Source: Asterias amurensis
Lineage: Eukaryota; Echinodermata; Asteroidea; Forcipulatida; Asteriidae
Assembly (NCBI RefSeq): GCF_032118995.1
Contig: NC_092656.1
Coordinates: 12,638,261-12,702,260, forward strand
Reading direction: 5' to 3'
DNA: 64,000 nt
Shown here: positions 157 to 55,146 of the stretch, piece after piece
How positions within the stretch are numbered: the stretch's first letter is position 1
How the letters are laid out: each line of letters starts with the position of its first letter
Position numbers and translations under genes: made by a program
Notes under the pieces: model-generated
Databases searched by the model: none
Told to the model about the DNA's origin: nothing
Seen by the model: the letters and a program-made list of their open reading frames with translations, nothing else

Positions 157-2137
157 CTACTCCGTTCCATCACCTCGCGGAGTTCTGCCTGGTGGCGTTG
201 TCGTTACGGCTTGCGTGGTTGTCATTGCTATCGTGGTCGTCATCGCTGTGGTCGCCACCGTTGTCGTTGTAGGGGGCATGGTCGTGGTCTTGACCGATGT
301 GGTGGCTTGAGTCGTAGCTTGAGTCGTCGTGGCTTGAGTTGTGGTCGGCGATGTCGTGGTCGTAGGTTTCTTACATGGATTCTCATTGCTGTCGTCTCCG
401 TTGTCATCGTCCCCGTCATCGCTGTCATCGTTGCCACTGTCACCGCACTCGGAACTGTCATCGCCGTCGCTGTCATCACGGACAATTCGCTGACGATTCT
501 TCATGCGACGGAACTTTCTCAGGGGGCGACTATCAGAGATCTGTGCTAAGAAGAGCGCTGTGAACAAAACAGGAATGTGATAGTATTATAAGACAAAATG
601 TCATATTTGGTTACAAAAGCTATACGTACAAAACAACTTTGGTGATCAAGCTGAAACAATTAAAACAAGTTTTTACCGGGTTACAGACCAATAAATGCTT
701 AGCCAGGTTGAGACTTAGCTTGAAGGTTTGAAACCAGGATGTGTAAGTTGAATGTCGTACCCATATTTTTTTTCTTTTCTTTTTTCTTTAAGAAGAGATA
801 CTGTCAGCGGGCAATAATCAGCTCACAGATGGCATCATAATAGGATTGAACTTAGTCAACTTAATATCTAGTATAATAACAGATGTATGGTTGACTCGTT
901 AATTCCGGCGTTCCGGCCTTGAAAGAAAGTACTCTGTTAGGGCAGTTCCCGAATTCCGGTTGTAATTAAACGGCGCTTCGGGTCTTACGCTTTGGGCTAC
1001 AAAAAGCGATTGTTAAACGGAAAATTAATTGACATTTTGTGGTTTTGTGCAACTCTCATGACAAAACACTGTCCACTATTTTGTAGAACCGAAATGGTTG
1101 ACTACACAACAAGGCGAACCCATTATTGCCGTATAATTCTAGAGGCAAAAATATTTAATGGCAACTTACTCATCAATACACACCGGTGTGTTTCAGTGCT
1201 TGAAAAACTCTATCCAAACAGAGAGGAATTTAAAGGTAATTTGCCCCTTTAATTCAATCGCAGAACATCCCAGTAATTATCCCCGTAAAGTTTGAAATTT
1301 CTCATTCGTACCCATTTCCGGGCCCCAATACTTTCCCCAAAACATTGATTCGAATATGAATTTAGCTGACTCAAACAAACACATCATTGAAAAGTTACAA
1401 ATTCTTATATGTTAATCTCAAAAACATGATGGCTAAACAGTTAAGATTTTTTTTTTTTTTTTTTTTTAAGATATAGGCCTAATAAAAACATGTGTTGCGA
1501 TAGTTTTTTCATTGTTATAATACATGTCAAAATCATGTTTGTTTTCATCGAATCATCATTGAGTATGAGAAGATGTGTCAATATTGCATTATTTCCCGAA
1601 TACCTTAAATGATGAACTGGTTGTTGTTTTCTACATGTTGGTTGACTGATCAGTTTCTAGAAAACAGTCCTATGATAACAGTTTTGGTTGTCAAAAATAT
1701 GGTTTAAAGGGTGTATGTACTTTTTGTAGGACAAACAACACAATGTCCAAAGATTTACACCAAAGTTACACAGTTTGAACATAATGATAGTAGAAAGCTT
1801 CTCTGAAAATATTACGTGCTGAGGTGCTGCAGTTTTGGGGTAATAAATAAAACAATGTCATGAAAATAGTTTTCGTCTCATGAGACGAACATTATTTTAA
1901 GCATTTGCAAACGTATTTTCATTACATTGTTTTTACTAATTTCTCAAAAACTAAGGCACCTCAGTAAGTAATATTTGAAAGGAAGCTTTCCACTACCATT
2001 ATCTTCAAACCCTGTAAGTTTAATGTAAATCTATGGACAATTTGAAAAAGTACCCAAATCCTTTAACTAAACAAAAATAATTACTTACTCAAAGCTGCGA
2101 CCAGCAAGAACGTTGTAATAATCTTAGCTGAAGTCAT
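157..2137 (-). CDS. Gene 1: secreted Asp-rich/Thr-rich protein with C-terminal RGD, two exons
   Basis: Exon 1 is 2089..2137 and exon 2 is 157..557, joined in phase 1 across a 1531-bp intron (donor GTAAGTAA, acceptor TTCACAG). The spliced product is about 149 aa. The junction completes a signal peptide, MTSAKIITTFLLVAALTLFL then A, with likely cleavage before QISDS. Next comes a basic stretch (RPLRKFRRMKNRQR), an Asp/Ser/Gly-rich acidic block of about 35 residues with two Cys, and a mucin-like Thr block (TTTQATTTQATTQATT) suited to O-glycosylation. It ends PRGDGTE, so an RGD integrin-type motif lies three residues from the end. Unlike the other cluster members it shows no membrane segment; it may be secreted, or a donor-like GAG/GTGATG just before the stop may lead to an exon outside the window. 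Acidic plus Thr-rich composition would suit mineral or matrix binding, but this is inference. No family was recognised. Confidence 0.72.
1706..2062. mobile_element. Palindromic MITE-like element, family G, in intron 1 of gene 1
   Basis: The ends are imperfect inverted copies: TTTAAAGGGTGTATGTACTTTTT on the left (18 bases shared) and AAAAAGTACCCAAATCCTTTA on the right. Inner segments also mirror each other, for example the AGTAGAAAGCTTCTCTGAAAA region against TTTGAAAGGAAGCTTTCCACT. There is no coding capacity. It lies between the two exons of gene 1, just inside the splice donor. Confidence 0.55.
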
Positions 2138-2269
2138 TCTCGTAGGTCAGTTTACTTCACGATTTATTTTCGTACCACAAATAAAACTCAGCGAACAGAA
2201 TTTGTTTTCCCACGTCCTGCTGCAGTCACTCAATCTTAATAATTAGAATCACAGGATTTAACATTCATC

Positions 2270-2278
2270 CTTTTATGC
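2270..2278 (-). promoter_or_regulatory. Putative TATA box of gene 1
   Basis: The minus strand reads GCATAAAAGG about 135 bases upstream of the gene 1 start codon. That would place transcription start near 2245 and give a leader of about 100 bases. The start codon context has A at -3. Confidence 0.4.
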
Positions 2279-3899
2279 TGATCCGTTGGTGTCCGTTTTG
2301 TTGTTATTTTGTTTTGTTCGTGGCTGTTAAGTAAATCGAAACTAGAAAACGTCACTGTATTGTTCCGTTGGCGAATACAAAAGCTGTCATGGCGGACGTT
2401 CGCTTAACAGGATGTAAAGTTCTATAGTACACCGTTCTGGTAAAAGTTAATTGACTTGTCAGATGCGCGTATGCTGATTCACAAAATGATTACGTCATGA
2501 TTTTTTTAAAACAGCCGTGGTTATTTAACGAATTAAAGTTAAAGTGTGAACTATTAAACGTGCCAGAGTTTCCAGAAACATGTCTTTTTATGTAAGTTCA
2601 TGCTAAAAGCTTAATTTTGGGGATGAAGTAAATAACATTAAAAATAGGTTTTAATCGGGCGTTCTAAAACAATTAAAGCAAACATAAATGTTAAAGAATG
2701 CAGGATGTATGAGGTAAATCTATAAAATATTAAAACTTGTTGCCGTGCACAAACAAATCAAGCAATAAAGGCATCGTATGAAACAATATAATACTATTGA
2801 AGTCTTATATGGCGCCGCTAATATCCACCAGACTAGGTACTCAAGGCGCTGAGTATGTACAAACTTTCAGAAAGATCTATAGGTTATTGAAGTGATGCAT
2901 TCTGAGACCCTATTATTTATAGCACCTTATACGGGTTTACAAGGTGCTACGGCGCATACAGTAGCCACAGCCAGGAACAGCGGGGCGAACCCCTTCTCTT
3001 TTCAATAAGTGAAATGGGTTATTTTACATGCGTTTCAACACACCGGACGCAACGGCCTTACGTCAAATCCGAATAAACGTTTAAACAAACAATCACATTA
3101 ACGTAATTTTCCTTAAACTAGAAATGTATTTTAATGTTGTTTGTCTGTATGTCCCTAATAAATATGCCTTTTTGAGTAAAATTAAAATAAAAAAATCATA
3201 CAGTTTATTGAAAATCAAGATGACTATGGTTAAACACAAATACTTATTGCAATATAATTATTATTAATCTGCTTAAATAACAACAAATAATAAGATGATA
3301 ATATGGTAGCATCGAAGTTGCAATTATTGTCCCTTTAAAGGCAGTGTGTACTTTTGGTATAATTGTCAACAGTATCCCATGCACAATGAGTAAACCAACA
3401 AACCTGTGCAAATTTGGGCTCAAACCAAGTTGCTTTAAGATGCCTAAAAGGGGGCTTTATGTCTGAAGTCTATCACGGATTCAATTTGAGGGTTGGACAA
3501 TCCTATTTCTCTACTACTGTAATGTCAGTTCTAAAAACGATTTATAATAATTTTTTAATCGATGTTTAAAACGATGGAGTTTTTTTCAGAGCAGGGTACA
3601 TTTCCAGTGCTCTTTTTCAATTGAGTGTTATTATGGTCAATAATGGCTGAAGAAATCACAGTGCTGGCGATGCTAGGGAGTTCATATTTGGAAAACAAAC
3701 CATTAATAAGAATGACAATATTCAAAACTCACTACATAATCGTGTGCAAACGATTGGTATTCTTAAAACAATGTAGACATTTGCTTTATCATTGATCATA
3801 GGCTTACTTGAGTCCTTGAATGGTCAAAGCAGGCTTGTGGCTGTACATGGAATTATGAACTGTCACCATGTTATTTCATGTGTGCACGTACCCTTCACA
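2279..3899. other. Upstream region of gene 1, no gene seen
   Basis: This is AT-rich non-coding sequence with no convincing open frame. Around 3337-3450 a segment starting AAAGGCAGTGTGTACTTTTGGTATAATTGTC resembles a decayed end of the family B repeat. Confidence 0.4.
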
Positions 3900-5177: not shown

Positions 5178-7520
5178 TTATGCTGGTGGTCCAGAGTTAG
5201 ATCGTCGTTGTGTATGCTTTCCAATCACAATAGCGATAACACCTACCAGTGTCACGGCTCCGATGGACGACAGCGAGATTGCAATACGGGTCTTGGTGGC
5301 GTCACTCAGCCCCTGTGAGGTTTTATCGTCTTCATCCTCTGTGGGTGGGGGCGTGGTGGCACCAGGCTGCTCAGTCGTGACCCCGTCAGAAAGCTGCTTT
5401 GCCTTTTCAGCAAGTTTGTTCAACTTGAGGTCAGTTGACTCGGTATCCTCTGATGCCTTGTTATCCACCGGTTCCTCTATGTCCATTGGTTCCTCTGTAC
5501 CCACTGATTTATTTTCATCCATTGGTGCCTCATTGTCAACTGATGCCTCTTTCTCCACGGGTACCTCTTCGACAGGGACCCCTCCGCTGGTGGTCATCAC
5601 GCTTGAGGATTCAAGTTCACTTCCCTCGGCAACCTCTGAGCTCTCATCATCAGCCTCACTCTGTTGTCCGATGTCGGCTCCCTGCTCCTCCTCGCTATCT
5701 GTGGTAACTCCGGCTGTCTGTGCAGCTCCTTCGGAAACTTCAGAGCTCTCATCGCCAGCTTCGCCCATCTCTGCTCCCTCCCCGTCACCACCAACCATCT
5801 CTGGAGCGTCCATACCCTCACCCTCAGGTTGCCCTCCATTGATAGCGATGAAGGGATTAGTGCCTCCCGCTGGGGTCTCCTCTTTCTCCTCGCCGCCCAT
5901 AACCGGCATACCTCCCGTTGATTCCTCACCATCAGCCTCCTCTCCTTCCATCTCTTCATTCTCCTCCCCAGCCTCAGCTGCCTCCGATTCGTCTTCTGGT
6001 TCATTTTGCTCGTTAGCCTCCTCCTCCGTCTCCTCCTCCTCCCCATTCTGCTCTGCGACAGCAGCAGCTTCCATGGCGGCACCTCCGGCCTCAGTGCTCT
6101 CCACGTCGCCATCTCCCTGACCGGTCATCTGTGGTTTGGGGACGACCTTCCCGCCGATGTTTCCGAAGAATACCCCCATCCCCTGCCGATCGACCTCTCC
6201 TGCCGTTCCACCGGCCGCGTTGTCGGTACCCATCTGAGCAGCTGCATCAACCTGTTCGTTGCTCTCGTCATTCTGGGCAAATGCTGTGCCTGGGGAGTTA
6301 CACAAAAAACATACGGATGAAAACAGCCTAATATATACAGTGATATTTTTCTTAAGAGGTTGAAGTGAATATTATTCAGTGCGCAAACATTCGTTTGTGT
6401 GTGAGTACACCACAAATAAATAATAAACGCCGATGCACCTATTTTAAAGTAGTCACAACTTTTTTTTAGTCGACATGTCTATACCATCAACTATTTTGTT
6501 TTCGTATGTTATCGTTTGTCCCTTTAATGACGTGTTTGTTTGTTTGTTTGTTTGTTTGTTTGTTTGTTTGTTTGTTTGTTTGTTTGTTTGTTTGTTTGTT
6601 TGTTTGTTTGTTTGTTTGTTTGTTTGTTTGTTTGTTTGTTTGTTTGTTTGTTTGTTTGTTTGTTTGTTTGTTTGTTTGTTTGTTTGTTTGTTTGTTTGTT
6701 TGTTTGTTTGTTTGTTTGTTTGTTTGTTTGTTTGTTTGTTTGTTTGTTTGTTTGTTTGTTTGTTTGTTTGTTTGTTTGTTTGTTTGTTTGTTTGTTTGTT
6801 TGTTTGTTTGTTTGTTTGTTTGTTTGTTTGTTTGTTTGTTTGTTTGTTTGTTTGTTTGTTTGTTTGTTTGTTTGTTTGTTTGTTTGTTTGTTTGTTTGTT
6901 TGTTTGTTTGTTTGTTTGTTTGTTTGTTTGTTTGTTTGTTTGTTTGTTTGTTTGTTTGTTTGTTTGTTTGTTTGTTTGTTTGTTTGTTTGTTTGTTTGTT
7001 TGTTTGTTTGTTTGTTTGTTTGTTTGTTTGTTTGTTTGTTTGTTTGTTTGTTTGTTTGTTTGTTTGTTTGTTTGTTTGTTTGTTTGTTTGTTTGTTTGTT
7101 TGTTTGTTTGTTTGTTTGTTTGTTTGTTTGTTTGTTTGTTTGTTTGTTTGTTTGTTTGTTTGTTTGTTTGTTTGTTTGTTTGTTTGTTTATAATTGACTG
7201 CACAAATCTATAGGAGGCAAAACCATGTTAACATTCAAAAGCAAACAATGCACTTTCATGATGTTTGATAAGTTTTATTATCAATGATGCAGGTGACCGG
7301 GTATAGCAAAATGACAGCTGTTTCGAAGAAACAACCTAATTTAAAAGCAAACCTTGCTCCTTCAATGTTAAAACTAAACAAATATGAGTGTAAATGTCAG
7401 CTGTCATGTGACTCATTATCAAGTGACTCATGGTCATGTGACTTATATATCTAAAATAAGACGACATTATGGCTCCGATGTTGATGTTGATGTTGAGTTT
7501 GTTTTCAAACTACAGAAAAA

Positions 7521-7556
<36 letters not shown>

Positions 7557-8480
7557 CCATTTTATCAAAATTGTTCACTAAAATAAATGTGCGCCATGGG
7601 AGGGCTTCTGTATGATATTAAACGAACATCTTCCTGAATATTTGTTGCAATAACTTCGTACACTAACCATTCCAGTTTTATATCAAGATTTTCGACAATA
7701 ATTTTACAATGATTTTAAAATATTGGTCGACAGTAAAATATTGGTCGACAGTTTTGTTTTCAGAATCACTTGCACATCCTCATAGTTTCTTGAATCAGCT
7801 TACGTTGAACAACTCATGGATAAGCACAACCATATATTTACTACCCCCCCCACCCCACCCCAACATATTTAACTAAGCATGTAAGCACAACACCTTGCTA
7901 AGCACAGCATCGAATTTTCCTTAGAAGTAACAGGTTTAACCTGCAAGCCAGAATTACATTGAGCTTGCATTTTTATGGCTGGTGCCGCACTCAATATTTG
8001 CTTAGCAAGTGTATGTTATATAAGCAGAATTTCTGCTAGACAGATTTATGAAGTTTATGCTGCAAACAAAGTAAATTTAATTGATACCTTACCCAAACAG
8101 AAAAAAAGCCGGGAAAGTTTTGGTGAAGATTTGACTTAAACCAAATTGTACATCAAAATAGACAGACAAACCGACACAACCCCAAACTATCAGCCTAGTC
8201 CCATTAAGTTTTTGCTTTTTGCCCAAAGGAATCTTTAGTTTTTATAACAGCTAACATTGCAATCGGAAGATCTGCTCAAGTAGTATGCGAAATCTTGCAT
8301 TTCCAAGATGGCTGCCATTTTCAAATAATTGTCTAAGTATATTCCCAAACGGCCGATGTTTCCACCAATCCATGATCCTAAACCGTAACAGAATAAATTA
8401 ATTAAAAGCTGAAATATGACTAACTTACCGATAAGAAGAACAACGATAAGAACAGACAATGCATTCATCTTAGACGCCAT
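5178..8480 (-). CDS. Gene 2: Glu-rich single-pass membrane protein, two exons
   Basis: Exon 1 is 8429..8480 and exon 2 is 5178..6289, joined in phase 1 over a 2139-bp intron (donor GTAAGTTAG, acceptor CTCCCCAG). The product is about 387 aa. Splicing restores a signal peptide, MASKMNALSVLIVVLLIGTA then FA, with likely cleavage before QNDES. Residues about 40-65 carry a GVFFGNIGG motif like the FF-x-[IV]-x-GG motif of genes 5 and 7. A strongly acidic ectodomain follows, rich in Glu, Ser, Gly and Ala, with a degenerate repeat of PMDE, PVDN and EEPMDIEEP type. The membrane segment is about residues 353-374 (IAISLSSIGAVTLVGVIAIV), with a short basic tail ending RRSNSGPPA. The start context is ACAATGG. 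The acidic ectodomain would bind divalent cations; a role in mineral or extracellular matrix is inference. The antisense frame is also open because of the biased codons and is not taken as coding. Confidence 0.82.
6533..7189. repeat. Perfect (TGTT)n microsatellite, about 164 units
   Basis: 657 bp of TTTG-type tetranucleotide repeat with no interruption seen, inside intron 1 of gene 2 and about 240 bases from the splice acceptor. All six frames are open across it, giving FVCL and TNKQ pseudo-proteins that are artefacts. Confidence 0.97.
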
Positions 8481-26297: not shown

Positions 26298-29200
26298 CTA
26301 CCCTTCGGCTGTTTCCAGTGGTAGACCAGCAATTGCAACCGAATCTCTTTGTGTGCTCATCTCGATTGTTTCATACCTTCCTCCTTTGTTGATCAGTGGT
26401 ACATTGGTACGGTTCTTTTTGATGAAGTAAACTCCAACAGCCGCTCCGGCTATCAGTGCGAGGCCCCCGAGTACGCCACCGACCGCCCCGCCGGTCATCC
26501 TTCCCGATGTGTCATGCTGTCCATTGACGTGGTTGACGATACCCCCTACGGTAACACTGTGATGGGTTTCGTCGTACACACCACTAGTACCGGGATTGAC
26601 ACCTCCTCGTCCCGTTCCCCCGCCGTTACCTGGCTGGTTTTGCCCAGGCAGGTTCGGGCTCTGTCCGCGTCCTGACGGAATCCTACCGTTCCCGTCAACT
26701 GGAAGATGTGTCAACCGATCTCTCGGGCTAGGAGTTGGTATTCCGACAGCGGTTCCCCGTCCAGCTGGAATGCCGAAGCCTGGCCTTCCGCCAGAGCTAG
26801 CAGTCCCAGTTCCTGATCCGGTAGAGCCTGATGTTCCGGTTCCAGTTCCAGTACCAGTTCCTGTACCAAAGCCGGTACCAGTGCCTGTACCCCTGCCTGT
26901 ACCTGTGCCGGTACCAGTACCAGTTCCGGTTCCACCGTAACCGCCCCTCCCAACAGTTCCACCATTGCCATAGGTGCCTTCTCCGCCAACTGACCCCTCT
27001 GACCCAAAATCCACACCGGGCCCGAAAGGCCCAACTGAACCTTCTCCTTCCATAGTTCCACCTGTGCCTCCTGTGCCTCCCACCCCTCCGGTCCCTCCGG
27101 TCCCTCCGGTCCCTCCGGTCCCTCCCGTCCCTCCGGTCCCTCCCGTCTTTCCCGTCCCTCCCGTCCCTCCCACTCCTCCCGTCCCTCCCGTCCCTCCCGT
27201 CCCCCTACCAGCTGCTCCTCCGACAGCTCCGGTTCCAACTCCCGGACCTCCAGTACCACCTTGCCCTCCACTACCCGTACCAGTAGCTCCCGTTCCCCCA
27301 GTTCCCCCAAAACCCCCAGTGCCCCCTGGGTAACCGGTTCCCCCGGTCCCGCTTGATGTTCCAGTGCCCCCGGTCCCACCTGTTCCACCGGTCCCGCTAG
27401 AGGTTCCAGCTCCTCCAGTCCCACTCGCAGTTCCAGTTCCCACAGTCCCACCGGTTCCCCCGGTCCCAGTTGTGGTTCCCGTTCTCCCAGAATCGTCTGA
27501 GGTACCAGTTCCGGTCCAACCCTTTTTCCTTTTGTTCGTTTCTGACTCTTCTGAACTCTTGCTATTTTCGTCTCCTTGTTGAGGAGCAAAGGGTTGTTTT
27601 TCGAACTTAACAGGTTCGGATGATAGAGGTTTATTCAATTTAGTCACAGTTGGTGGTAAAGTGACATTACCTCTATTGGTCGGGCTACCCGGAAGCCCGT
27701 AGTTCGGATTTACATTACCAGTGTTCACTTCTGGGGTTCCTGCTGCTGGCCCATTCACTGGGGTTCCCGGAACGTTTGGTGATCCAGAAACAGGATTTCC
27801 ATTCGGTGATCCAACACCTGGGTTACCATTTGGTGATCCCGAGGCTGGATTTCCATTGGGAGTTCCAGATCCCGGATTGCTGCCTCCCCCACCACTAGCA
27901 CTTCCATTTGTAACTCTAGGATCAGTCGCGTTTGGATTTGTGTTTGTCGTACCGGATATGGGATTTCCAGTCATGCCTGTACCCGAAGTTCCATTCGTTG
28001 TTCCGCCAGAGGTACCCCCACCAGGGTTTCCGTTAACCCCAGGATCCGGAACTCCAGCTTCTGTTCCACCACTTGAATTTGTGTTTGACGATCCGGATTT
28101 AGGACTTCCGTTCACGCCTGTACCTGAAGTTCCATTCGTTGTTCCACCACTCGAATTATTTACACCCGGATTATTGCTAGAGGTCCCCCCGCCAGGGTTT
28201 CCGTTAACCCCAGGATCCGGAACTCCAGCTGCTGTTCCACCACTTGAATTTGTGTTTGACGATCCGGATTTAGGACTTCCATTCACGCCTGTACCTGAAG
28301 TTCCATTCGTTGTTCCAACACTCAGATTATTTACACCCGGATTATTGCTAGAGGTCCCCGCTCCAGGGTTTCCGTTAACCCCAGGATCCGGAACTCCAGC
28401 TGCTGTTCCACCACTTGAGTTTGTGTTTGACGATCCGGATTTAGGAATTCCGTTCACGCCTGTACCTGAAGTTCCATTCGTTGTTCCACCACTCGGATTA
28501 TTTACACCCGGATTATTGCTAGAGGTCCCCCCGCCAGGGTTTCCGTTAACCCCAGGATTCGGAACTCCAGCTGCTGTTCCACCACTTGAATTTGTGTTTG
28601 ACGATCCGGATTTAGGACTTCCATTCAGCCTGTACCTGAAGTTCCATTCGTTGTTCCACCACTCGGATTGTTTACACCCGGATTATTGCTAGAGGTCCCC
28701 CCGCCAGGGTTTCCGTTAACCCCAGGATCCGGAACTCCAGCTGCTGTTCCACCACTTGAGTTTGTGTTTGACGATCCGGATTGAGGACTTCCGTTCACGC
28801 CTGTACCTGAAGTTCCATTCGTTGTTCCACCACTCGGATTATTTACACCCGGATTAATTGCTAGAGGTCCCCCGCCAGGGTTTCCGTTAACCCCAGGATC
28901 CGGAACTCCAGCTGCTGTTCCACCACTTGAGTTTGTGTTTGACGATCCGGATTAGGAATTCCGTTCACGCCTGTACCTGAAGTTCCATTCGTTGTTCCAC
29001 CAATCAGATTATTTACACCCGGATTATTGCTAGAGGTCCCCGCTCCAGGGTTTCCGTTAACCCCAGGATCCAGAACTCCAGCTTCTGTTCCACCACTTGA
29101 ATTTGTGTTTGACGATCCGGATTTAGGACTTCCGTTCACGCCTGTACCTGAAGTTCCATTCGTTGTTCCACCACTCGGATTGTTTACACCCGGATTATTG

Positions 29201-31330
29201 CTAGAGGTCCCCCCGCCAGGGTTTCCATTAACCCAGGATCCGGAACTCCAGCTGCTGTTCCACCACTTGAGTTTGTGTTTGACGATCCGGATTGAGGACT
29301 TCCGTTCACGCCTGTACCTGAAGTTCCATTCGTTGTTCCACCACTCGGATTATTTACACCCGATTATTGCTAGAGGTCCCCCCGCCCAGGGTTTCCGTTA
29401 ACCCCAGGATCCGGAACTCCCAGCTGCTGTTCCACCACTTGAGTTTGTGTTTGACGATCCGGATTTAGGAATTCCGTTCACGCCTGTACCTGAAGTTCCT
29501 TCGTTGTTCCACCAATCAGATTATTTACACCCGGATTATTGCTAGAGGTCCCCGCTCCAGGGTTTCCGTTAACCCCAGGATCCAGAACTCCAGCTTCTGT
29601 TCCACCACTTGAATTTGTGTTTGACGATCCGGATTTAGGACTTCCGTTCACGCCTGTACCTGAAGTTCCATTCGTTGTTCCACCACTCGGATTATTTACA
29701 CCCGGATTATTGCTAGAGGTCCCCCCGCCAGGGTTTCCGTTAACCCCAGGATCCGGAACTCCAGCTGGTGTTCCACCACTTGAGTTTGTGTTTGACGATC
29801 CGGATTTAGGACTTCCGCCCACGCCTGTACCTGAAGTTCCATTCGTTGTTCCACCACTCGGACTATTTACACCCGGATTATTGCTAGAGGTCCCCCCGCC
29901 AGGGGTTTCCGTTAACCCCAGGATCCGGAACTCCAGCTGCTGTTCCACCACTTGAGTTTGTGTTTGACGATCCGGATTTAGGACTTCCGTTCACGCCTGT
30001 ACCTGAAGTTCCATTTGTTGTTCCACCACTCGGATTATTAACACCCGGATTATTAGTAGAGGTACCTGTGCCAGGGTTTCCATTAACCCCGGGATCCGGA
30101 ACTCCGGCTGCTGTTCCATCACCTGGTTGTGTGTTCGTTGTCCCCGTTCCTGTTACCCCTGAGTCCGGAGCTACTCCAACTTTTGGGGTATTTGGGTTCC
30201 ATGATTGGATTATAGCGCCACCTTTTGACATTCCAGTGTCAGTTGCACCATTTGTCCTCGCGTTCCCGCCTTTTTGTGTTACACCAGCACGTCCGACTGG
30301 TTCTGTATCTGCCAGCAGTCCGTTTGTGACACTTGACCTCACAGTCGGCAAAATGACTGGTGTGGTTGGTTGAGCGCCACCAGCGTTACCATTAGTAAAT
30401 GCCATAATAGGCCCTCTCGGTAGAAAGCCTTTCTCTGTGTCTATACGTCCGACCGGCACACCAAAGCTGTGAGTTTTTCCTGGTGGAGGGGTGGGTGTCC
30501 CGATGTTGTCATTTGAGCCTGCTGTTGCGACTGTAATTAAATGAATAAAATAAACAAAATAAACAAACACGAACTAAACAAAGTATTGTTAAGTGACTTT
30601 CACCAACAAACTCCCCTTTTCAAGACTAAAAAAAAAACTATCACCCACATCTACCCCAAAAGGCAAAATAAAAACTATCGCCATGAGTTTATGTTAAGCA
30701 AAGTATAGTCACCTTGAATTTGATAACACTATTTTGAAGAAAAAAAAGTGTACAGTACACAATCAACTTAGAAGGTCAAGTTCACTTCATGAAGTTATCA
30801 CAAGTTAAAATATCATTTAGACTTCGAGAAAGATTCTTCTAGGGTGGAAACGTTAACTATGTTGTGCAAGTTAAAACATCGGCACCCCGAACAAAGATAT
30901 TGACAAAATAGGGACACTGCCAATATCGGGCTAGATATCTCAGTTGGTAGAGCGTTGGTTCGAATCCCACTCTAGTCAACTCTTTGTTCAACCTCAAAAA
31001 TCAAATTAAAATATCTAAAAAAATACTGGGGAAAAAATACGACGACGCTTGAAAAGTAGAATGGGTTAAAGTTCCCTCATAAGGAAAAAACTTGTGCACT
31101 GTTCCCCAACAACATACCTATCCGGGGAGTAAGAACAACCCTGCCATTAACAGGTGTCTCATTTACATTCATGAATCAACCTAAAGTCGCCCACTCAATT
31201 AATACCTTTCAAAAATTTCTACAAAAAAATCACAATCAACATTTAAAAAAGGTAACAAAAATGTATCATGTCTCTTACCAGACGCCAGACTGCAGACAAG
31301 GAACAACTTCAGCAACCAAATCGCCGCCAT
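26298..31330 (-). CDS. Gene 4: large Gly/Asn/Thr-rich repeat membrane protein, two exons, frame breaks in the repeat array
   Basis: Exon 1 is 31279..31330 and exon 2 is 26298..30530, phase 1, with a 748-bp intron (donor GTAAGAGAC, acceptor AATTACAG). The signal peptide is MAAIWLLKLFLVCSLASVAT then AG, with likely cleavage before SNDN. A unique region of about 130 residues follows, then about twelve copies of a 57-residue repeat (NGTSGTGVNGSPKSGSSNTN; GVPDPGVNGNPGGGTSSNNP), an 8-residue PNGNPxSG repeat, a Lys/Glu-rich spacer, Gly-Gly-Thr runs and Gly-Thr runs. The membrane segment has GxxxG spacing (AVGGVLGGLALIAGAAVGVY), and the tail is 40 residues with RYETIEMS. The frame is not continuous: about ten single-base gains and losses between 28620 and 29910 sum to -2. 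Flanking units are intact. Either the assembly is unpolished here or the gene is decaying. It is not collagen (no Gly-X-Y register). Intact length would be near 1400 aa. Confidence 0.75.
26815..27500 (-). repeat. Gly-Thr and Gly-Gly-Thr coding minisatellites in gene 4
   Basis: Two short-period arrays lie in the coding frame: a 6-bp GGTACC-like unit (Gly-Thr) at about 26825-26935 and a 9-bp GGAGGGACC unit (Gly-Gly-Thr) at about 27055-27500, with Val, Ser and Ala variants. They are open without a break in the coding frame. Confidence 0.8.
27990..30130 (-). repeat. 171-bp (57-codon) tandem repeat array in gene 4
   Basis: Copies of the anchor CCATTCGTTGTTCC start at 28132, 28303, 28474, 28644, 28815, 28985, 29156, 29326, 29498, 29668, 29839 and 30011. 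The spacing is 170-172 bases, against 171 for an in-frame unit. A shorter unit precedes at 27991. Variant marks (CCAATCAGATT, CCGCTCCAGG, CCAGAACTCCAGCTTC) recur together at 28985 and 29498, three units or 513 bases apart, so a block of three units was duplicated. Confidence 0.93.
30928..31010 (+). mobile_element. tRNA-derived SINE-like fragment lacking the anticodon arm, in gene 4 intron
   Basis: GGCTAGATATCTCAGTTGGTAGAGC (A box) runs straight into GTTGGTTCGAATCCCAC (B box), and TCTAGTCAACTCTTTGTTCAACC follows. The 5' GGCTAGA can pair with TCTAGTC, but the anticodon arm is missing. Confidence 0.5.
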
Positions 31331-38558: not shown

Positions 38559-40611
38559 TTACGCAGAGCTTATGATGAATCTTGAATGCAGTTGACGTCT
38601 TTGACGTACAAGAATTGTGGCCACAAGTGCAAATACCCCAACGACAATAATGACAGCGACAATCACACCAACTGCAGTGCTAGCAGCGGTTACGAATCTC
38701 GCTTTGTTCCCTTCCATTATCTCATTGAAAACTTTGGGATCAAATTCACCACCAGCGATAAGTCCCGGAGCTTTACCACCGTCTATGTCAAAGAATCCAT
38801 TATTTTTCCGTCCTGATTTCGTGTCCGTGTTACCAGCTGACGGGGCTTTCGGTGACTGGTCACCGTTGAAATAGTCGTGTCCCCCGAAGCCTGCCAGGCC
38901 ATTTGACGAACCGCCTGATTTACCCGGGTCGGCATTGGCTCCCTCCACGGGTTGAAGTTGAGGGTCACCCATTGCTGCAGCGCCACCAGGAGGCTTGGTG
39001 CTCGAGGGCGACTCGCCGATGGGTACCGGCCCCAGGGCGTTTCCTCTGGTACCGAGGGCATTCGGCCCACCGTACGCTGGCTCGGACCATGGTGGCAAAG
39101 TGTCGTATTCATGTTCAATGTCATTGAAGAATCGTACGTTCCTATTGTCGGGTAGTGGACCACTCATTTGTCCTTGGATCAACCCTAGAAAGGCAGAACA
39201 AAATAAGACAATTGGACGTAAGATTCAAATATTGCGAAACCCTACCGTGGCCGTAAAACAACAAAAGTCATGGCAAGCGGTCTCACCGTCTTCCAAATAA
39301 TGTAATATGCTTATGTATGCGAGCTTTTATGGAACATTGTAAATACGGAGTAAATGTTGTTGTTACCATAGTCATTATAAAGTAATACTCCACAAGGGAA
39401 ACTGTCTGATTGGGTAGTTTTGTAATAATCTGGGTTTGAATAAAGAAAGAAAGGTGTGATTTGAACCAACGACCCATGTTTAAAGTATAGGCACTCTACC
39501 AACTGAGCTATCTAGCACTCAATATTATAAAATGGGCTGGCTTCATTTTCCCAGAGTCTTCAGCAGAAAATAATGTTTAAACATTGTGGCATTGTATTTT
39601 GGCTGGCAACCAATAATAACTGCATTAGTTTGTTGTGCTTACCAACCTGCTTTTTTGGCTTATGCAGCTCCGTGAAATAAACTTGTGTGAACTTGGTTTA
39701 ACCCTTGCTTCGTCAAACACGAAGGATTGTCTTATGACGCGTTGTCGGTAATATCATGGTGTTTTGTACCGGTATTGTGACATCACACCTTGCTAAGCAG
39801 TTAAGGCTGATTCACATCGTTAGATCGGTCTTAACCCTTTGTAAAATTAAGCTTATCTACAGAAAATCAAAAAGAAGTAGTTTCATGGCATAAACACAAA
39901 TCTGGCGTATTGGTCGAAACGTCGAGTTTCTACAGCGATGGTTTTTTTTTAAAACCACTACACCACATGAGAGAGAATCTGAAATAATTTATCGCAAATT
40001 TTTTGGATATTATCTCCATCTGAGAAAATTAAAATACTATAATATAAACGTTTTGGTATGATTACCACAGAACAATTAAATCGCGGATGATAACAATAAG
40101 CTTTCGTGTTGTAGCAGTACTAATAAAAACAATGTGTAATTCATACGTTTTAAAGGGAGTGTCGTGGCCGAGCGGTTAAGAGCACCGAATTCAAACTCTG
40201 GTGTTTCTGATCAGCAGAGTGTGGGTTCTAATCCCCAGCCGTGACACTTGTGTCCTTATGCAAGACACATAACCGTTGTTTCGTCCTTCGGATGGGACGT
40301 AAAGCCGTTGGTCCCATGTGTTGTGTAAAAAGAACCCAGTGCACTATTGAAAAGAGGATGGGTTCGTTCCGGTGTTCCTGGCTGGATTGGCAGCACATTG
40401 CGCCACATCACCTTGTAAACCATTGTATCCTTTGGCAAAAGGCGCGTCATAAATAGCTATTAAAGATTCGGTTACAAAGATGTCAGCATAATTTCTAAGA
40501 TTTTAATCAGCAAACAAAGATTTAGTTTCCCTACAGTAAAGCAAACATTTTGTTTATCAAATTGCATCAAAACTTACCCAACAGTGGAAGAAACACAACA
40601 AGTACCTTCAT
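38559..40611 (-). CDS. Gene 5: Gly/Pro-rich single-pass membrane protein, two exons, paralog of gene 7
   Basis: Exon 1 is 40578..40611 and exon 2 is 38559..39184, phase 1, with a 1393-bp intron (donor GTAAGTTTT, acceptor CTTTCTAG). The product is about 219 aa. The signal peptide is MKVLVVFLPLLGLIQG, cleaved before QMSGPL. The ectodomain has blocks shared with gene 7: FFND[IV], TLPP, SSTKPP, the PQL/GANADP/SGGSS run, FGxHDY[FY]NG and NGFF[DG][IV]DGG. The membrane segment is about residues 183-204 (VIVAVIIVVGVFALVATILV), followed by RQRRQ and a tail ending SRFIISSA. The best-conserved parts against gene 7 are the signal peptide, the GANADP block and the membrane segment with RQRRQ, so the pair arose by duplication. 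A SINE-like element sits in the intron. Function is unknown; a surface or matrix role is inference. Confidence 0.85.
39405..39520 (-). mobile_element. tRNA-like SINE element in intron of gene 5
   Basis: The minus strand reads GCTAGATAGCTCAGTTGGTA then GAGTGCC (A box), and later GTCGTTGGTTCAAATCACACC (B box), followed by TTTCTTTCTTTATTCAAACCC. The acceptor stem does not pair, so it is a SINE head, not a tRNA gene. Confidence 0.5.
40159..40470 (+). mobile_element. tRNA-Leu-type SINE
   Basis: 40159..40247 folds like a leucine tRNA: GTGTC pairs with GACAC, then GTGGCCGAGCGGTTAAGAGC, an anticodon loop TTCAAAC and the B box GGGTTCTAATCCC. The body has GTCCTTCGGATGGGACGTAA and GGTCCCATGTGTTGTG, the kind of conserved body seen in animal SINEs. 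It lies within the gene 5 intron. Confidence 0.7.
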
Positions 40612-42723: not shown

Positions 42724-44315
42724 TATGGTGGCCCCGACGGGACATCGCATAACGCAAACGTGTGCGCACACGTATGCAATGTCGTGAAACAAATCGCGAA
42801 TATATGCGCACACGTATACAATATCGTGAAACAATAGACTGTGCAAGTCTCGCGCAGATTTGAACTTCCGGGACCATTGTGGTCCCAACCTTATGGAGTT
42901 TTACGTTGGGGAGATTTTGTTTCGTCCAATACTTTAGTCTAATGTAGTTTATGACCATAAAAATGACATATGTTGTTAAAAATGTAATACTAATTAACAA
43001 CATATATAAAGTAAAAATAAAGTCAACATAATAACAAAGAAAAACCGATATTTAAACTTGACCTCAGGTCAGGTTAGTTGTAAAAAATTAAGAATTTGTG
43101 CCCATCTCCGGTCAAGAAACTTACGCAGACGCTTGTTTTGGCCGCGCGGGGTGGAAAGCCTTTTCATTGGTCGCTTGGGCGTCGGCTTCCTCTTTAAAAT
43201 GCGTCACGCGTTTATCTAACGCCCTTGCGACCATCGTGCGTCCGCGTATACCCAGCTTTTAGTAGTTTCACATTCGGGCGTAGATTTACAAAAGGGGTTT
43301 CAAAACATTTAAAATCAAACAAACATCCTTGTCCCAGAGTTTTGCTTGTGTCCATACATAGACTTTAACCGATAATTGTGTATGTGTTTAAAAAGCTAAC
43401 ACTTATTTAAACAAGCTCTAATGTGTATTTTTGTTGTTCAGATTCGGCATTAAGAATAAATTAAAGCAAAGATTTGATTCACAAAAAAATAAAGTTCTTC
43501 AGTTGTCGTGTTTTCTCGCTCCGGTGCGCGCGAGACTTGCACAGTCTATTCGCGAATATGTACGCACACGTATGCAATGTCGTGAAACAATTCGCGAATA
43601 TGTGCGCACACGTATGCAATGTCGTGAAACAAATCGCTAATTTGTGCGCACACGTATGCAATCTCGTGAACCAAATCGTGAATATGTGCGCACACGTATG
43701 CAATCACGTGAACCAAATCATGAATACGTGCGCACACGTATGCAAACTCGTGAACCAAGTCGTGAATATGTGCGCACACGAATGCGATTAGTTTTGCAAT
43801 GTCGTGAATTTTATTGCATAAAACAGCTGGCGCTACAGCAGGCTCCCTGTGTAAAGCATGTGTATACCCAGGAACTTGGCACCAGGCCAAGGAAAAACCA
43901 CACGCCTCGCTTGCCTCACAACAAAGACTACTGCTGCAATAACTACCGCTTATCTTACTGTTGGAAATAAACCCCCCAGATCGTTAGACATTTTATTCAA
44001 AGGTATGCAACATGGTATGCAATAAAATTCACGACACCGCAAATAATATTCGCAGACGTGTGCGCACATATCCGCGAATTGTTTCACGAGATCGCATACG
44101 TGTGCGCACATATTCGCGAATTGTTTCACGACATTGCATACGTGTGCGCACATATTTGCGAATTGTTTCACGACATTGCATACGTGTGCGCACATATTCG
44201 CGAATTGTTTCACGACATTGCATTCGTGTGCGCACATATTTGCGAATTGTTGCACGACATTGCATACGTATGCGCACACGTTTGCGATATGCGATGTCCC
44301 TTCAGGGCCACCATA
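42724..44315. mobile_element. Foldback-type transposon with 42-bp subterminal repeats
   Basis: It is bounded by inverted ends TATGGTGGCCCCGACGGGAC and GTCCCTTCAGGGCCACCATA and flanked on both sides by the 6-bp direct repeat CCAGAG (42718..42723 and 44316..44321). The left arm has about eight copies and the right arm about six inverted copies of a 42-bp unit (GTGCGCACACGTATGCAATG; TCGTGAAACAATTCGCGAAT). The arms end inside at exact inverted 20-mers GTCGTGAATTTTATTGCATA (43792) and its complement (44017). About 200 bp of unique sequence forms the loop. No transposase is encoded; the 42-bp period keeps several frames open. The plan matches foldback elements such as sea urchin TU elements, but unit and target duplication lengths differ from those I recall. 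Confidence 0.8.
42836..43547. mobile_element. 712-bp element nested in the foldback left arm
   Basis: Perfect 20-bp terminal inverted repeats AGACTGTGCAAGTCTCGCGC, themselves containing the small hairpin AGACT...AGTCT. It splits a 42-bp unit: GTGAAACA+AT on the left and AT+TCGCGAATATG on the right join to the normal GTGAAACAATTCGCGAATATG, giving a 2-bp AT target duplication. The interior is AT-rich and non-coding, so it would need enzymes from elsewhere. Confidence 0.78.
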
Positions 44316-44321
44316 CCAGAG

Positions 44322-45079
44322 ACCTGCCTCCAGACCGGAGTGCATTCTCACCTTTGAACTTCATGCATTATATTGCGAACTTGACAGCAATCTATGTTTT
44401 TGGCATGGAAAGCTCACGTCACAGCACGTATCCAATGCTATCATTAAATCCCACGGAATCACTGATCTGAGTAACAGGGACCTCGGGAGACCAGTCTGCC
44501 CGGAAACATGATTCAATATTAGACTTTTGGGGACTCTAGGTGGCAGCAGATTTCCATCTAAACTCACTGTTTTTAAACATGTGCAAATCAACAATTAAAT
44601 TGTAATTCTGCTGCAACCTAGTGTTCAAATTTCTCCAGATGTGAACTTCGCTCGGCCCCAGCGGCCAGTCTATCCAGGACCGCTGGGATGGGCTAAACGC
44701 TTGCACAGATTCTTGTCAATGAAGTACGTCATGTATGCAGTGCATAGAAATATGGCACAGTGTGAGTGTGATGCATGATGGGACTGCGCATTATAAAACC
44801 AATGACAGTGCATGGTACGTTTGCTAATCCCAGCGCCTTTGGTTAAAGTAAGGCGCTGGGGACGAGCGAATATGTGAATCTGGGGACGAGCGAAGATGTG
44901 AATCTGATTATGTTTTTTTATATTGCATTACTCTTACCTAAACTCTTATGAATGTTCACGCCCAGGTTGGGCAGTGACTATTAAGGTTTAACACTATACA
45001 GGTCTCACAGTTCGAAAAGTTCTTCTTTATTGTTTTAGTTAAAACCAGAACTGTCAGAACACATTGACTATACCGACAA
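44322..45079. other. Intergenic stretch, no gene seen
   Basis: It includes a tandem GGGGACGAGCGAA[TG]ATGTGAATCTG duplication near 44860-44908 and inverted CCAGCGCCTTTGG / AAGGCGCTGGGG near 44830-44860. No coding evidence. Confidence 0.3.
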
Positions 45080-47993: not shown

Positions 47994-48691
47994 TTATGCG
48001 GAGTTAATTAGTCTAGAATGCTTTCTTTTCCTGACTACGAAAAAAATGATAGCACCCACGGCAGCAGCAACTATTAAAGCAGCCGCCGCGATACCTGCTC
48101 CGGTTGCTGCACCCCCGCTGGCGGCTTTATCTTCCCCTTTCCCTTGACTTTTAAGGTTATTAAAGTGTCCACTGCCATGACCACCTGCACCCCTCATGCC
48201 CCCGTTGTGTGCCATACCCCCATGCATACCCCCGCCGGCCATCCCAGCGCCCAATCCGTTGTTACCGCGACGGACTTCAGCCGACGTTCTACCGGGATGG
48301 TATGGGGCTCCTGCAAAGCCACCCGCGGGCTCCGGAGCACCAGCCATGCCGAGGTCGTTCAAGCCGCCGTGCCTTCCCGAACTCGGTGCATGTCCTGCCC
48401 CTTGCATGCCACCTTGCATGCCGCCACCTTGCATGCCCTGACCCCCGCCGTTCGGACCGTGGTTTGCCCCACGTCCTCCAGCTCCATTGCCTGCAGCACC
48501 TCCGAAATAGTCTGGATTGATCCTTTCGCCAGAGGTTCGTCCTGGGTGTGTACCGGGTCCAGTGCCGATACCGATGCCTCCACCCAACTCTCCCGGTAGA
48601 ATGTTGCCGTTTTGCATGGTCTGTTGCATCAGTTTGTGGGCGGCTTCGTAAGTACCAACGGGGATGTCGCCCTCACCGATCCCATAAGGAC
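47994..48691 (-). CDS. Gene 6: Gly/Met-rich single-pass membrane protein, exon 2 only identified
   Basis: The exon starts after acceptor CATTTCAG in phase 1 (N|GT CCT TAT), as in the other cluster genes, and runs to a stop at 47994, giving about 231 residues. It begins PYGIGEGDIPVGTYEAAHKL, then a Gly-rich region with HPGRTSGERINPDYFGG and a second YHPGRTSAEVRRGNNG, and Gly-Met-Gln repeats (GMQGGGMQGGMQGAGH, GMAGGGMHGGMAHNGGMRG). The membrane segment is AGIAAAALIVAAAVGAIIFF then VV, and the tail RKRKHSRLINSA resembles the gene 5 tail. No signal-peptide exon with a donor was found between 48692 and 53500. It lies between paralogs 5 and 7 and probably shares their origin. Without exon 1 it could be a pseudogene, or the exon could be too diverged to see. 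Confidence 0.72.
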
Positions 48692-50235: not shown

Positions 50236-50319
50236 AAATTGCTCTCAGGTTGAATATTTACAAGGAGGTGATTATACCTATGAAAAGGGGTGGATGTGTG
50301 GTGAGAGTAGAGGGTGTAG

Positions 50320-50885: not shown

Positions 50886-50919
50886 ATATCTTGGCGGGGG
50901 CTCGGGCTTTAAGAAGCCC

Positions 50920-52041: not shown

Positions 52042-52431
52042 TTAAAGGAACACGTTGCCTTGGATCGGTCGAATTGGTCTTTGAAAAGCGTTTGTAACCG
52101 TTTTTTATAAAATACATATGGGTAGAAAGATGTTGTAAAAGTAGAATACAATGATCCACACAAACATGCCTCGAAATTGCGTGGTTTTCCTTTTACATCG
52201 TCGACTAACACGTCGGCCATTTATGGGGGTCAAAATTTTGACCCCCATAAATGGCCGACCATGTTAGTTCGCACAGTAGAAGGAAAACCACGCAATTTCG
52301 AGGCAAACTTGTGTGGATCATTGTATTATACTTTTAAAACATCTTTCCAACCATATGCATTTTATAAAAAACGGTTACAAACGCTTTTGTTTTGACCAAC
52401 TCGTCCGATCCAAGGCAACGTGTTCCTTTAA
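52042..52431. mobile_element. Family A palindromic MITE, copy 7
   Basis: 390 bp from TTAAAGGAACACGTTGCC to GGCAACGTGTTCCTTTAA, with a perfectly symmetrical centre GGGGGTCAAAATTTTGACCC. It is among the best preserved copies. Confidence 0.83.
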
Positions 52432-53582
52432 GGCATTGACAAACAAAAAACAAACAATCAAAAATATAAAACAAACAAAAACATTTCGAAAGGGTGGCGA
52501 TGGTGGCAGTGGGGCGTGGTGACGGTGGGTCGTTGGCGGCGCCCTTCTGATAAAAGGGATGCAAGAAGAACCGGTTACACAATACTAAGAATACTAATTT
52601 CACATTTTTATTCAATCAACACAGATGTTAGTACAAAACCTACTTCCAATCTCAACAAAGCGCTCCGTCTTTGTTAATCTTTTCTTCGTGTCATCAAACA
52701 AAAATATGTATTTCGGTCCACACCCTATGGGTGCCCCGCCTAACAAATTTCTCGCCCGACTGCTCTTTCATGAGGCATATTCTAATGGGTAGACACACTC
52801 ATTGCTGATTTAGAACTAAACAAAATGAAACTGAACCAGCAGAGGGCATTATGGTAGGTTTCTTTAGTTATTACTAATCAACCAAACATGGTCAATACCT
52901 TTTGACTAGCCAACGGGTTTTCAAATTGCTTGAGTAAAATACTAATTACTTTTTAAAAGAAACATGAAACAGCCTAAGGCTGGAAAGAAGGACTAGAAGA
53001 TATTGCGTCAAATTTTCGAAGAAATGAGAAATGAGAAACGAGAAATGTTGAGACCGTCAACACTCTTCAAACAGGCACTGTACAATCCCCTGACGTCTTC
53101 TACAGGGTGTGATACCCAGAAGACTATGGTAATGAACAAGGAAAGAGGAGCGCCATATAGTTTTACTTTGTAGTATGTTCAAGTTAATGTATACACATGA
53201 CTGCAATATTGGAGTTTTGCTTTTCAGAACCATTGTGCATAATAAATGTTTAAAAGTGTATCTAGAGAAATACACTTGTACGAGTCTAGTTCGATGGGAG
53301 ACTTAAACAATATTGATGCGACAAAAGAAATTGTCAAGACATGGTGTTTCCTCTTTGATTTGTACGGAAGCTCTTTAAGTTCAGAGCTGACTGAAGCCCT
53401 GTGCTTTCAAAATAACAGAGAGAAAGGCAATAATGTAGTAGGACATTACTGAAGAGATATCTGCATAAAATATTAACAACTCCTATCGCACACATCATGG
53501 GGATATCACGGAAGATAGTTAGAAAAAAAGCAAGACAGATTAAAGACAACGAAATTAAAGTTCAGATAATTGTTCATTGGTT
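52432..53582. other. Intergenic stretch 3' of gene 7
   Basis: No gene was seen. Around 52600-53000 and 53090-53160 there are matches to general animal repeat-like sequence, but no ends could be defined. Confidence 0.25.
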
Positions 53583-55146
53583 TTACACGGAGCCGATGAC
53601 CACTCTAGACTGGCGCCTTTGCCGAACGAGGAAGACAGCGACCAGTGCAAAGATACCAATCACGATGATGACAGCGACGACAACACCGACTACAGTTCCT
53701 GCAGCGGCACCAGCGTTTACCACTTCATTGGCGTTGGATTTATCTTGCATGTCTTTTGAGTCGTACCCTCCGTGAGCATGACCGGCCATGAGTCCAGGTC
53801 CCATATCATAACCACCGCCGCCACCATCGACACCGAAAAAGCCATTCGTTTGCTCACCTGAGTTTTGATTCGTGTTTCTGCCCCCAGAGGGAGCCGCGGC
53901 TTGTGGGGCTAGGACATCGGGGCCGGTTCCGCCATTGTAATAGTCGTGGGCTCCGAAGCCGGTCAGGCCACCCGATGAACCACCTGATCTACTCGGGTCG
54001 GCGTTGGCTCCTACAACGGCTGGGAGTTGGGGGTTACCGATCGGGGCGGCGCCATGGGGAGGCTTGGTGCTCGACTGAGATCCACCCAGTTGGCCACCGA
54101 CTGGTACAGCTTGCTGTGCAGCTCCTCCACCGACCCCTGGTGCAGGATGGGCCCGCGGTGGTAGGGTGCTGGTTGATTTCCCCACGTCATTGAAGAAGCC
54201 ATCTCTAGTGTTGTCATACCCTTGTCCTTGCATTTGAGCTGCAACCAGCCCTGTATCAAGAAAAGGGAAATAGCATTTCGGTTTTATTTATAACTGTTCA
54301 ACAGGTGTGTGTAATCGATTATGATAACAAGTTTTTTAGAAACACAAATAAAGCCCAATACGTGCCAAGACAACCCCTGCTGATGTTTTTTCATAAACGA
54401 AATCAATGTATAAGATGCAACAAAATCATTCACATTTTGCTGGGGGAAAAAAAACACATTATGATTTTATTAACAGGCACCCCATTCGTCTTCAATTTGT
54501 TAATGCAGAGACAAATAGGATGACTTACAAATGACTCGAGAAACAAAAACAAGAAATGACTCTTAAGCCCAATATCCTGACCGGAAGTAACTGCTGATTA
54601 GTTCAGAATTCCTTAAGAAGGAAAACTCCCATTGTTTCTATTTTAATATCGTTGATCTTTGTTATGACAAGAAGGATTGATGACGAGCTCAAGAAGGGAA
54701 CGCTTCAAAAGTTCTTAAAAGTTTCTCAGAGGAAGTTCAACTTTTAGAAGAAGCTAAACTCTTCTGATTAAGAACTAAACAATGACTGTCTCGAAACGCG
54801 CGAGTTGTTTAGAGAGTTGGTCGATGAAAGTTGCGTCTAGAAGAAGACGGCCGATAACATAACACCAAACTGAATACAAATCGTGCTATAAAACTCAAAG
54901 AGAAGTTTTTAAGGAAGTAATTACGACTTATCTTTCATTGAACAAACAATGTGTGCTTCTTTCTGAACTGTACGTAGCATTGGGTAAACCAAGCCAGCAA
55001 TGTTTAAAATCGGAACACAATTAAACTATCAGAGAGTAAAACTTTACTTCAAAGGTGTTTTAAAACAAGACGCTGAAAAGGCAAAGTCAGTCAATAAATA
55101 TATTAAACTTACCCAAAAGGGGGAGTAAAGTTAGCAGCATTCTCAT
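53583..55146 (-). CDS. Gene 7: Gly/Pro-rich single-pass membrane protein, two exons, paralog of gene 5
   Basis: Exon 1 is 55113..55146 and exon 2 is 53583..54250, phase 1, with an 862-bp intron (donor GTAAGTTTAA, acceptor TGATACAG). The product is about 233 aa. The signal peptide MRMLLTLLPLLGLVAA is cleaved before QMQGQG. Exon 1 is exactly the same length as in gene 5 and shares LPLLG. The ectodomain keeps FFNDV, STLPP, SSTKPPHGAAP, the PQL/GANADP/SGGSS run, FGAHDYYNGG and NGFFGVDGGGGG, with a Gly-rich insert (YDMGPGLMAGHAHGGYD) that gene 5 lacks. The membrane segment is about residues 198-220 (VVAVIIVIGIFALVAVFLV), followed by RQRRQSRVVIGSV. The start context is AAGATGA. Role unknown; it probably sits at the cell surface like gene 5. 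Confidence 0.86.

Follow-up and report, generated by a model that had tools for sequence, protein, structure and literature searches.

Our analysis suggests, with a probability of roughly 0.6, that the locus described here is a starfish P16-type biomineralization locus, made up of about 12 adjacent genes on one strand that encode low-complexity proteins of the secretory pathway. The window (the whole stretch of Asterias amurensis DNA analysed, 64 000 nucleotides) contains six genes, and the flanking DNA contributes six more of the same plan and strand (G-84, G-54, G-37, G-17, G-13 and G-4); the whole cluster occupies ~140 kb of the minus strand of chromosome C9, from 12553246 to 12693406, and continues ~85 kb past the left edge of the window. 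An initial annotation had counted seven genes in the window. Its seven large low-complexity exons do all lie on the minus strand, but the count falls to six because the exon of 'gene 6' (g6) is joined to g7 in two database proteins, P0004 and P0005; a signal-peptide exon of its own was looked for and not found. The features in the window are as follows.

2089..2137, minus strand: g1, candidate signal-peptide exon with a weak donor (score 1.7)
157..557, minus strand: g1, large exon; basic stretch, Asp/Ser-rich, then Thr-rich, without a membrane segment; no database protein behind the model
8429..8480, minus strand: g2, signal-peptide exon, identical to the start of P0012
5178..6289, minus strand: g2, large exon; Glu-rich ectodomain, membrane segment, short tail; model equals P0012 (A. 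amurensis); A. rubens P0014
19911..19959, minus strand: g3, signal-peptide exon, identical to the start of P0010
14758..15557, minus strand: g3, large exon; Ser/Gly/Glu-rich ectodomain, membrane segment, basic tail; model equals P0010 (A. amurensis); A. rubens P0011
31279..31330, minus strand: g4, candidate signal-peptide exon with a good donor; no database protein behind the model
26298..30530, minus strand: g4, large region; Gly/Asn/Thr repeats, Gly-Thr stretch, membrane segment, 40-aa tail
40578..40611, minus strand: g5, signal-peptide exon, the same as in A. rubens P0001 save the last whole codon
38559..39184, minus strand: g5, large exon; short-kind P16-like protein; A. rubens P0001
55113..55146, minus strand: g6/g7, signal-peptide exon common to both forms (P0004, P0005)
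53583..54250, minus strand: g7, large exon; read-through gives a 233-aa P16-like form with a membrane segment and RQRRQSRVVIGSV tail
53858 (last exon base), minus strand: internal splice donor of the g7 exon (AAAACTCAG/gtgagc), deduced from P0004 and, for A. rubens, from P0005
47994..48691, minus strand: 'gene 6', read as the other last exon of g7; rich in Gly/Met, with its own membrane segment and an RKRK tail

Five gene models are identical letter for letter to A. amurensis database proteins, three in the window (g2, g3 and the long form of g6/g7) and two flanking (G-37 and G-54). The models of g2, g3, G-37 and G-54 were fixed before the protein search that matched them; for g7, the signal exon and both acceptors had been found before P0004 was fetched, and the internal donor alone was taken from that record. 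Database proteins back 7 of the 12 genes (g2, g3, g5, g6/g7, G-84, G-54 and G-37), while the other five (g1, g4, G-17, G-13 and G-4) are supported by sequence only. A database protein search with 11 tagged genes, whose length range only full-length g4 exceeds, returned no protein for G-17, G-13, G-4, g1, g4 or R70 (70838-71514, right of the window). Genome queries with g5, G-37, G-54 and G-84 gave matches confined to the cluster locus, save one weak match on C12. No Pfam family reached the cut-off among the nine cluster-region proteins scanned, a set outside which G-17, G-13 and G-4 lie. The expectation that ordinary homology would serve these genes poorly is borne out by the names of their A. 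rubens relatives, 'glycine-rich cell wall structural protein 1.8-like' and 'sodium/potassium/calcium exchanger 1-like'.

The plan common to these genes is a split signal peptide followed by a low-complexity ectodomain, which across the cluster is Gly-rich, Glu-rich, Ser/Asp/Glu-rich or Thr-rich, and a single C-terminal membrane helix with a tail, found in 10 of the 12 proteins. In the window, a hydrophobic segment plus a tail with basic residues (13 to 40 aa) ends six of the seven units, as had been proposed, g1 being the exception. A phase-1 acceptor candidate is present for all seven large exons, and a mechanical search gave signal-peptide exons with good donors for g2, g3, g4, g5 and g7. 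The split phase-1 signal peptide stands for these five; the g1 donor is weak (a rival first exon lies at 3733-3799), and for g6 no signal-peptide exon was found. Likewise, a single large exon per gene holds for the exact models of g2 and g3 but not for g4, where a 57-aa repeat unit (171 bp, 12.5 copies) carries ten 1-base indels within 7 of 12 units, so that the frame is interrupted rather than one open exon, whether by real breaks or by errors of assembly.

According to the recorded proteins, g6 and g7 are alternative 3' ends of one gene. Splicing donor 53858 to 48691 yields a 374-aa Gly-rich protein that reproduces P0004 exactly, and this long form is on record for two Asterias species (P0004 in A. 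amurensis, P0005 in A. rubens); the short form is matched by the short records P0007, P0006 and P0002. By computation the long form has a mass of 36.1 kDa, a pI of 9.7, a Gly content of 25% and a membrane segment at residues 343-362. In g5 the internal donor of g7 is absent (GGA in g5, GGT in g7), and the g5 ectodomain is identical to that of P0001 at 152 of 163 residues. The predicted structure of the 233-aa form has a mean pLDDT of 47, with values <50 in 171 of 233 residues and a confident membrane helix; from this low-confidence model, the ectodomain would appear disorder-like.

The P16 plan consists of a signal peptide and one C-terminal membrane segment with a short basic tail, and g5 and the short form of g7 each display all of these elements. 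The two are closely related to each other, and probably also to P16, a skeleton gene of sea urchins. Sea urchin P16 (SPU_018408) and p16rel1/p16rel2 are described as skeletogenic membrane proteins, which the cluster resembles in plan and not by alignment to sea urchin sequence. Among the matches listed, the g5 and g7 P16-like searches gave Asterias and close relatives only, and a crude word filter found no sea urchin protein among those listed for cluster proteins. As no sea urchin sequence was recovered, P16-type membership is argued from publications and anatomy. Cheers and Ettensohn reportedly showed in 2005 that P16 is needed for skeleton growth. P16 is listed as biomineralization, transmembrane (PMC13200730 Table 3), and its category is termed highly conserved across four echinoderm classes in the available text of PMC5831733. 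In the accessible portion of PMC4750990, p16rel1/2 are expressed in larval skeletogenic cells of sea urchin, and the p16 of another starfish (blastx 6e-11 to Sp-P16) is upregulated by forced Alx1 and high in adult spines and plates; the same portion reports no in situ hybridisation signal for it at metamorphosis, and its authors urge caution on its induction. P16 itself was not found in sea urchin matrices, perhaps through lack of tryptic sites, 'P16' is absent from the main text of an Ophiocoma proteome, and p16 is not named among six biomineralization genes common to four Ambulacraria, including a sea star.

The long form of g7 has a candidate counterpart of its own in sea urchin Sp-Hypp_2998/2999 (Glean3:18406/18407), an abundant Gly-rich matrix protein encoded beside P16. 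By description, not alignment, both are Gly-rich, basic, mostly disordered by prediction and of 36 kDa, their C-terminal membrane segments fall at almost identical positions, and both are tied to a P16-type gene. They differ in that the Asterias long form comes from the same gene as the P16-like form and has the signal peptide and first ectodomain in common with it, whereas the sea urchin papers describe neighbouring gene(s); unlike sea urchin P16 as described, the P16-like exon of g7 has an internal donor that leads to a second, larger protein. This shared-exon gene suggests how P16 and the neighbouring matrix protein could be related.

On the P16-type reading, skeleton-forming cells would express the cluster genes, and the ectodomains would face the mineral compartment and be partly shed into it. 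The acidic ectodomains of g2 and g3 (whole-protein net charge -75 and -37) would bind calcium, the Gly-rich ones of long g7 and g4 would add matrix, and splicing of g7 would decide whether its one promoter gives a P16-like product that is small and tethered or a Gly-rich one that is large and goes to the matrix. As a tentative extension, about which we are doubtful, the cluster might be an ancestral echinoderm skeletal-surface locus, holding some twelve jointly controlled genes for disordered matrix proteins, most of them tethered to the membrane. One of these, a P16 gene, would give the small P16-like and the bulk Gly-rich forms by a splice switch, and in sea urchins the two would have become separate neighbours. 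By analogy only, the vertebrate SCPP cluster is likewise a tandem run of disordered mineral-matrix genes; most of the starfish proteins, unlike those of SCPP, are tethered to the membrane, and the comparison is not meant to suggest kinship. The SCPP cluster is reported to have arisen by tandem duplication (PMC8870065, in part). The sea urchin spicule matrix (SM30/SM50) and MSP130 families are skeletal too, the former with low-complexity repeats. Spicule matrix proteins bear a C-type lectin domain, as the available text of PMC5460417 has it, and no Pfam match to that domain appeared in the nine proteins scanned. That text also describes the Patiria miniata skeletal proteome as lacking C-lectin spicule matrix proteins, similar acidic repeats and MSP130, although the genes listed for another sea star include msp130. 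A compact locus of ~12 candidates, seven of them with exact gene models, offers a testable list of proteins that may form sea star mineral matrix.

An unlikely alternative is that the clustered genes encode membrane mucins or proteins of the glycocalyx, podoplanin-like in plan and serving epithelium, adhesion or mucus, the P16-like pair being incidental neighbours. The Thr-rich g1 would suit it, as would sub-threshold matches of the G-54 and R70 tails to Podoplanin (E 0.003 and 0.09) and of g1 to Mucin (E 0.1), and on C12 a Thr-rich mucin-like frame outside the cluster carries a membrane tail of the same style. However, the majority of ectodomains are rich in Gly, Glu or Ser/Glu and lack the Ser/Thr/Pro character of mucins, none of the nine scanned proteins matched Pfam at cut-off, and the sea urchin proteins that the cluster resembles are skeletal, with expression restricted to skeletogenic cells in the available parts of PMC2614417 and PMC2527298.

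It is distinctly improbable that the genes are unrelated secreted genes and merely neighbours, their phase-1 signal-peptide intron and one membrane helix being generic for short secreted proteins. Such an intron is common at the signal-peptide boundary of animal secreted proteins and is therefore weak evidence of kinship here. Common descent, proposed for an expanded family, is demonstrable only for g5 and g7 (48% identity; 78% DNA identity across 143 bases), no other pair among 13 exons matching in blastn at E 0.01. Among 12 membrane-tail segments (R70 in, g1 and G-13 out), 28 of 66 pairs reached p<0.05 under a loose shuffle and 12 of 66 under a strict one (11 of 55 without R70). The off-cluster C12 mucin control, which as second-best genome match to G-54 is a favoured control, reached 3 of 11, comparable to 11 of 55 within the cluster. 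Descent of the whole cluster from one ancestor was thus rejected as a reading of the tails; g5/g7 excepted, similarity did not rise above this control, which it should do in one tandem-duplicated family of ~12. A QNSGEQ motif common to G-37 and g7 was also discarded, since one or more matches of this kind arose in 82 of 300 shuffles. Nor were any upstream 7-mers of the cluster genes outstanding (best uncorrected p 0.049). TAATYNRATTA palindromes (Alx-type) occur no more than 600 bp upstream of the ATG in two of the 12 genes, g3 and G-17 (uncorrected p 0.005; five patterns tried), and their total over 244 kb is chance-like (3 observed, 3.7 expected). Against mere neighbourhood stands a same-strand run of ~12 low-complexity genes: a both-strand scan of the 244 kb gave 11 candidates on the minus strand (10 in phase 1) vs 1 on the plus strand. 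Another both-strand scan, also requiring a membrane segment, gave 15 minus and 5 plus rows, the latter at three places, of which one is antisense to g2 and one a simple repeat.

Simple repeats abound in the region, as do spurious long frames in either orientation, yet an artefact of chance open frames is scarcely credible for the locus, as database proteins of two species match the models and ectodomains are 92-96% identical in five A. amurensis/A. rubens pairs; it is refuted for g2, g3, g5, g6/g7, G-84, G-54 and G-37 and may still apply to g1, G-17, G-13, G-4 and the broken part of g4.

Rapid evolution, also claimed for the family, is supported for the g7 ectodomain alone, which is 78% and 66% identical to P0007 and P0002 where the membrane tail is 95% and 92% identical. 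The g2 comparison between Asterias species speaks against it, the tail (87%) being less conserved than the ectodomain (96%).

R70 was set aside as a cluster member, having no convincing signal-peptide exon; its tail reached p<0.05 in 0 of 11 comparisons under the strict shuffle and z 5.8 against g7 under the loose one. EGF frames lie upstream of R70 on the same strand, and it may therefore be the last exon of their gene.

The initial annotation had counted seven separate genes on the minus strand of the window (g1-g7). Two database proteins, P0004 from A. amurensis and P0005 from A. rubens, however start with the g7 signal peptide, match the g7 exon as far as ...NTNQNSG and then pass into the g6 exon; splicing the donor at 53858 (AAAACTCAG/gtgagc) to the acceptor at 48691 reproduces P0004 exactly. 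At the sequence level, g6 and g7 are a single gene with two alternative 3' ends. Reading through the donor yields a short, P16-like form (233 aa) with its own membrane helix, found in P0007 (a 1619-base record that includes the signal peptide), in P0006 (919 bases) and in P0002 (a 17,507-base contig). The AlphaFold model of this form (P0007 together with five relatives) has a mean pLDDT of 47 and is confident only at the membrane helix; a disordered protein would be expected to give this result, but six sequences are a small input. g5 has lost the donor GT, reading GGA there, so it has no such splice switch at this position. P0005 carries the misleading name 'glycine-rich cell wall structural protein 1.8-like'.

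The long form (g7 start spliced to the g6 exon) has 374 aa, 36.1 kDa, 25% Gly, a membrane segment at 343-362 and a pI of 9.7 (first 17 residues omitted from the pI). The portions consulted of sources including PMC2614417 and PMC2527298 describe a sea urchin gene adjoining Sp-P16 that encodes a 36-kDa protein with 30% Gly, pI 11 and a membrane segment spanning residues 337-357; in all sea urchin skeletal matrices analysed, this protein ranks with the most abundant. The two match by description and position, not by sequence alignment. In the available part of PMC4750990, Alx1 raises the level of a starfish p16 that is also expressed in adult skeletal tissue, and in situ hybridisation at metamorphosis is stated not to have detected this p16. 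We found no description of the starfish cluster or of the g7 splice switch in the literature, with most subscription journals outside the search.

A signal peptide split in phase 1 had also been proposed, and this largely stands: acceptor candidates leaving two leading bases precede all seven large window exons, and signal-peptide exons were identified upstream for g2, g3, g4, g5 and g7. The candidate for g1 is weak, and the same search gave no convincing one for the g6 exon. Applied to the flanking DNA, it yielded six more genes, each labelled by its distance in kilobases from the left edge of the window (negative coordinates); every acceptor chosen for them leaves a phase-1 join, and some are weak (3.8 for G-37, 1.3 for G-17).

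Flanking features (window coordinates)
About -85014 to -2891, minus strand: six low-complexity genes sharing the plan of those in the window (G-84, G-54, G-37, G-17, G-13, G-4)
70838-71514: R70, Thr-rich exon with a membrane segment and a longer tail

Gene predictions were fixed before the last protein search, whose query combined twelve tags of 22 aa drawn from eleven genes. Eight proteins covering five genes were returned.

Database proteins returned by the tag search
G-37: P0008, P0009
g3: P0010, P0011
g2: P0012, P0014
G-84: P0013
G-54: P0015

Where A. amurensis itself has a record (G-37, g3, g2, G-54), all four predictions equal it letter for letter, and the first 17 residues of G-84 are all identical to those of its A. 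rubens record. The tag search gave no protein for G-17, G-13, G-4, g1, g4 or R70, only full-length g4 falling outside the length range searched. A database protein thus stands behind seven of the twelve accepted genes (g2, g3, g5, g6/g7, G-84, G-54, G-37) and is lacking for five (g1, g4, G-17, G-13, G-4). P0014, the A. rubens relative of g2, is misleadingly named 'sodium/potassium/calcium exchanger 1-like'. The large exon of G-37 contains, at about -36.9 kb, GGTGAGCA at a codon whose position corresponds to that of g7's internal donor; with a donor score of 3.5 against 6.7 for g7, it is a possible second splice switch. Its use was not seen, both G-37 records reading through the site.

The window occupies C9:12638261-12702260, and in its coordinates the accepted cluster spans -85014 to 55146, about 140 kb, possibly with ordinary genes lying among its members. 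A both-strand scan of 244 kb, which counts candidates rather than genes, gave 11 on the minus strand (10 in phase 1; 8 accepted as genes) and one on the plus strand, and missed the accepted g1, g3, G-13 and G-17. Minus-strand candidates with acceptors at -104851, -34643 and -7689 were not accepted, the last re-using the G-4 signal exon. An earlier scan requiring a membrane segment gave 15 minus-strand and 5 plus-strand rows. The C-terminus of G-13 is a hydrophobic stretch that no basic tail follows, as in a GPI signal. A Pfam scan of eight flanking frames recognised, to the left of the cluster, C1q and PHAX and, to its right, two EGF frames plus a MAM frame just below cut-off; R70 was left out of the cluster and may be the final exon of the EGF gene on its right.

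Common descent, proposed for the seven window genes, holds for g5 and g7, which at 48% identity are paralogues as judged from their sequences; the other exon pairs compared among cluster genes show no DNA similarity. Resemblance between membrane tails loses its force because an off-cluster Thr-rich, mucin-like frame (C12:5144052-5144192), whose tail resembles that of G-54, scores against the cluster tails about as well as these do among themselves (3 of 11 pairs against 11 of 55 at p<0.05). Between A. amurensis and A. rubens, five pairs (g5, g7 long form, g3, g2, G-84) share 92-96% identity in the ectodomain and 87-100% in the tail; ectodomain identity is 91% to P0006 and 93% to P0009. For g7 the tail is the better conserved (95% against 78% for the ectodomain with P0007, 92% against 66% with P0002), whereas g2 is the opposite (ectodomain 96%, tail 87%).

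Two of only three TAATYNRATTA (Alx-type) palindromes in the 244 kb, a total that chance predicts, lie at 20139, 180 bp upstream of the g3 ATG, and at -15846, 212 bp upstream of the G-17 ATG.

The g4 gene contains a 171-bp unit in 12.5 copies (28008-30135). Ten one-base indels, all within 7 of the 12 complete units (units 0, 2, 9, 10 and 11 have none), are either genuine or assembly errors. A published PacBio HiFi assembly of A. amurensis measures 491.53 Mb with a scaffold N50 of 23.75 Mb (PMC10625585), and there is a second assembly (PMC11090083). A short-period repeat block at 43465-44508 has many open frames on both strands, and by eye its halves are inverted; long simple-repeat arrays at 6448-7227 and 60262-61188 produce spurious open frames on both strands.
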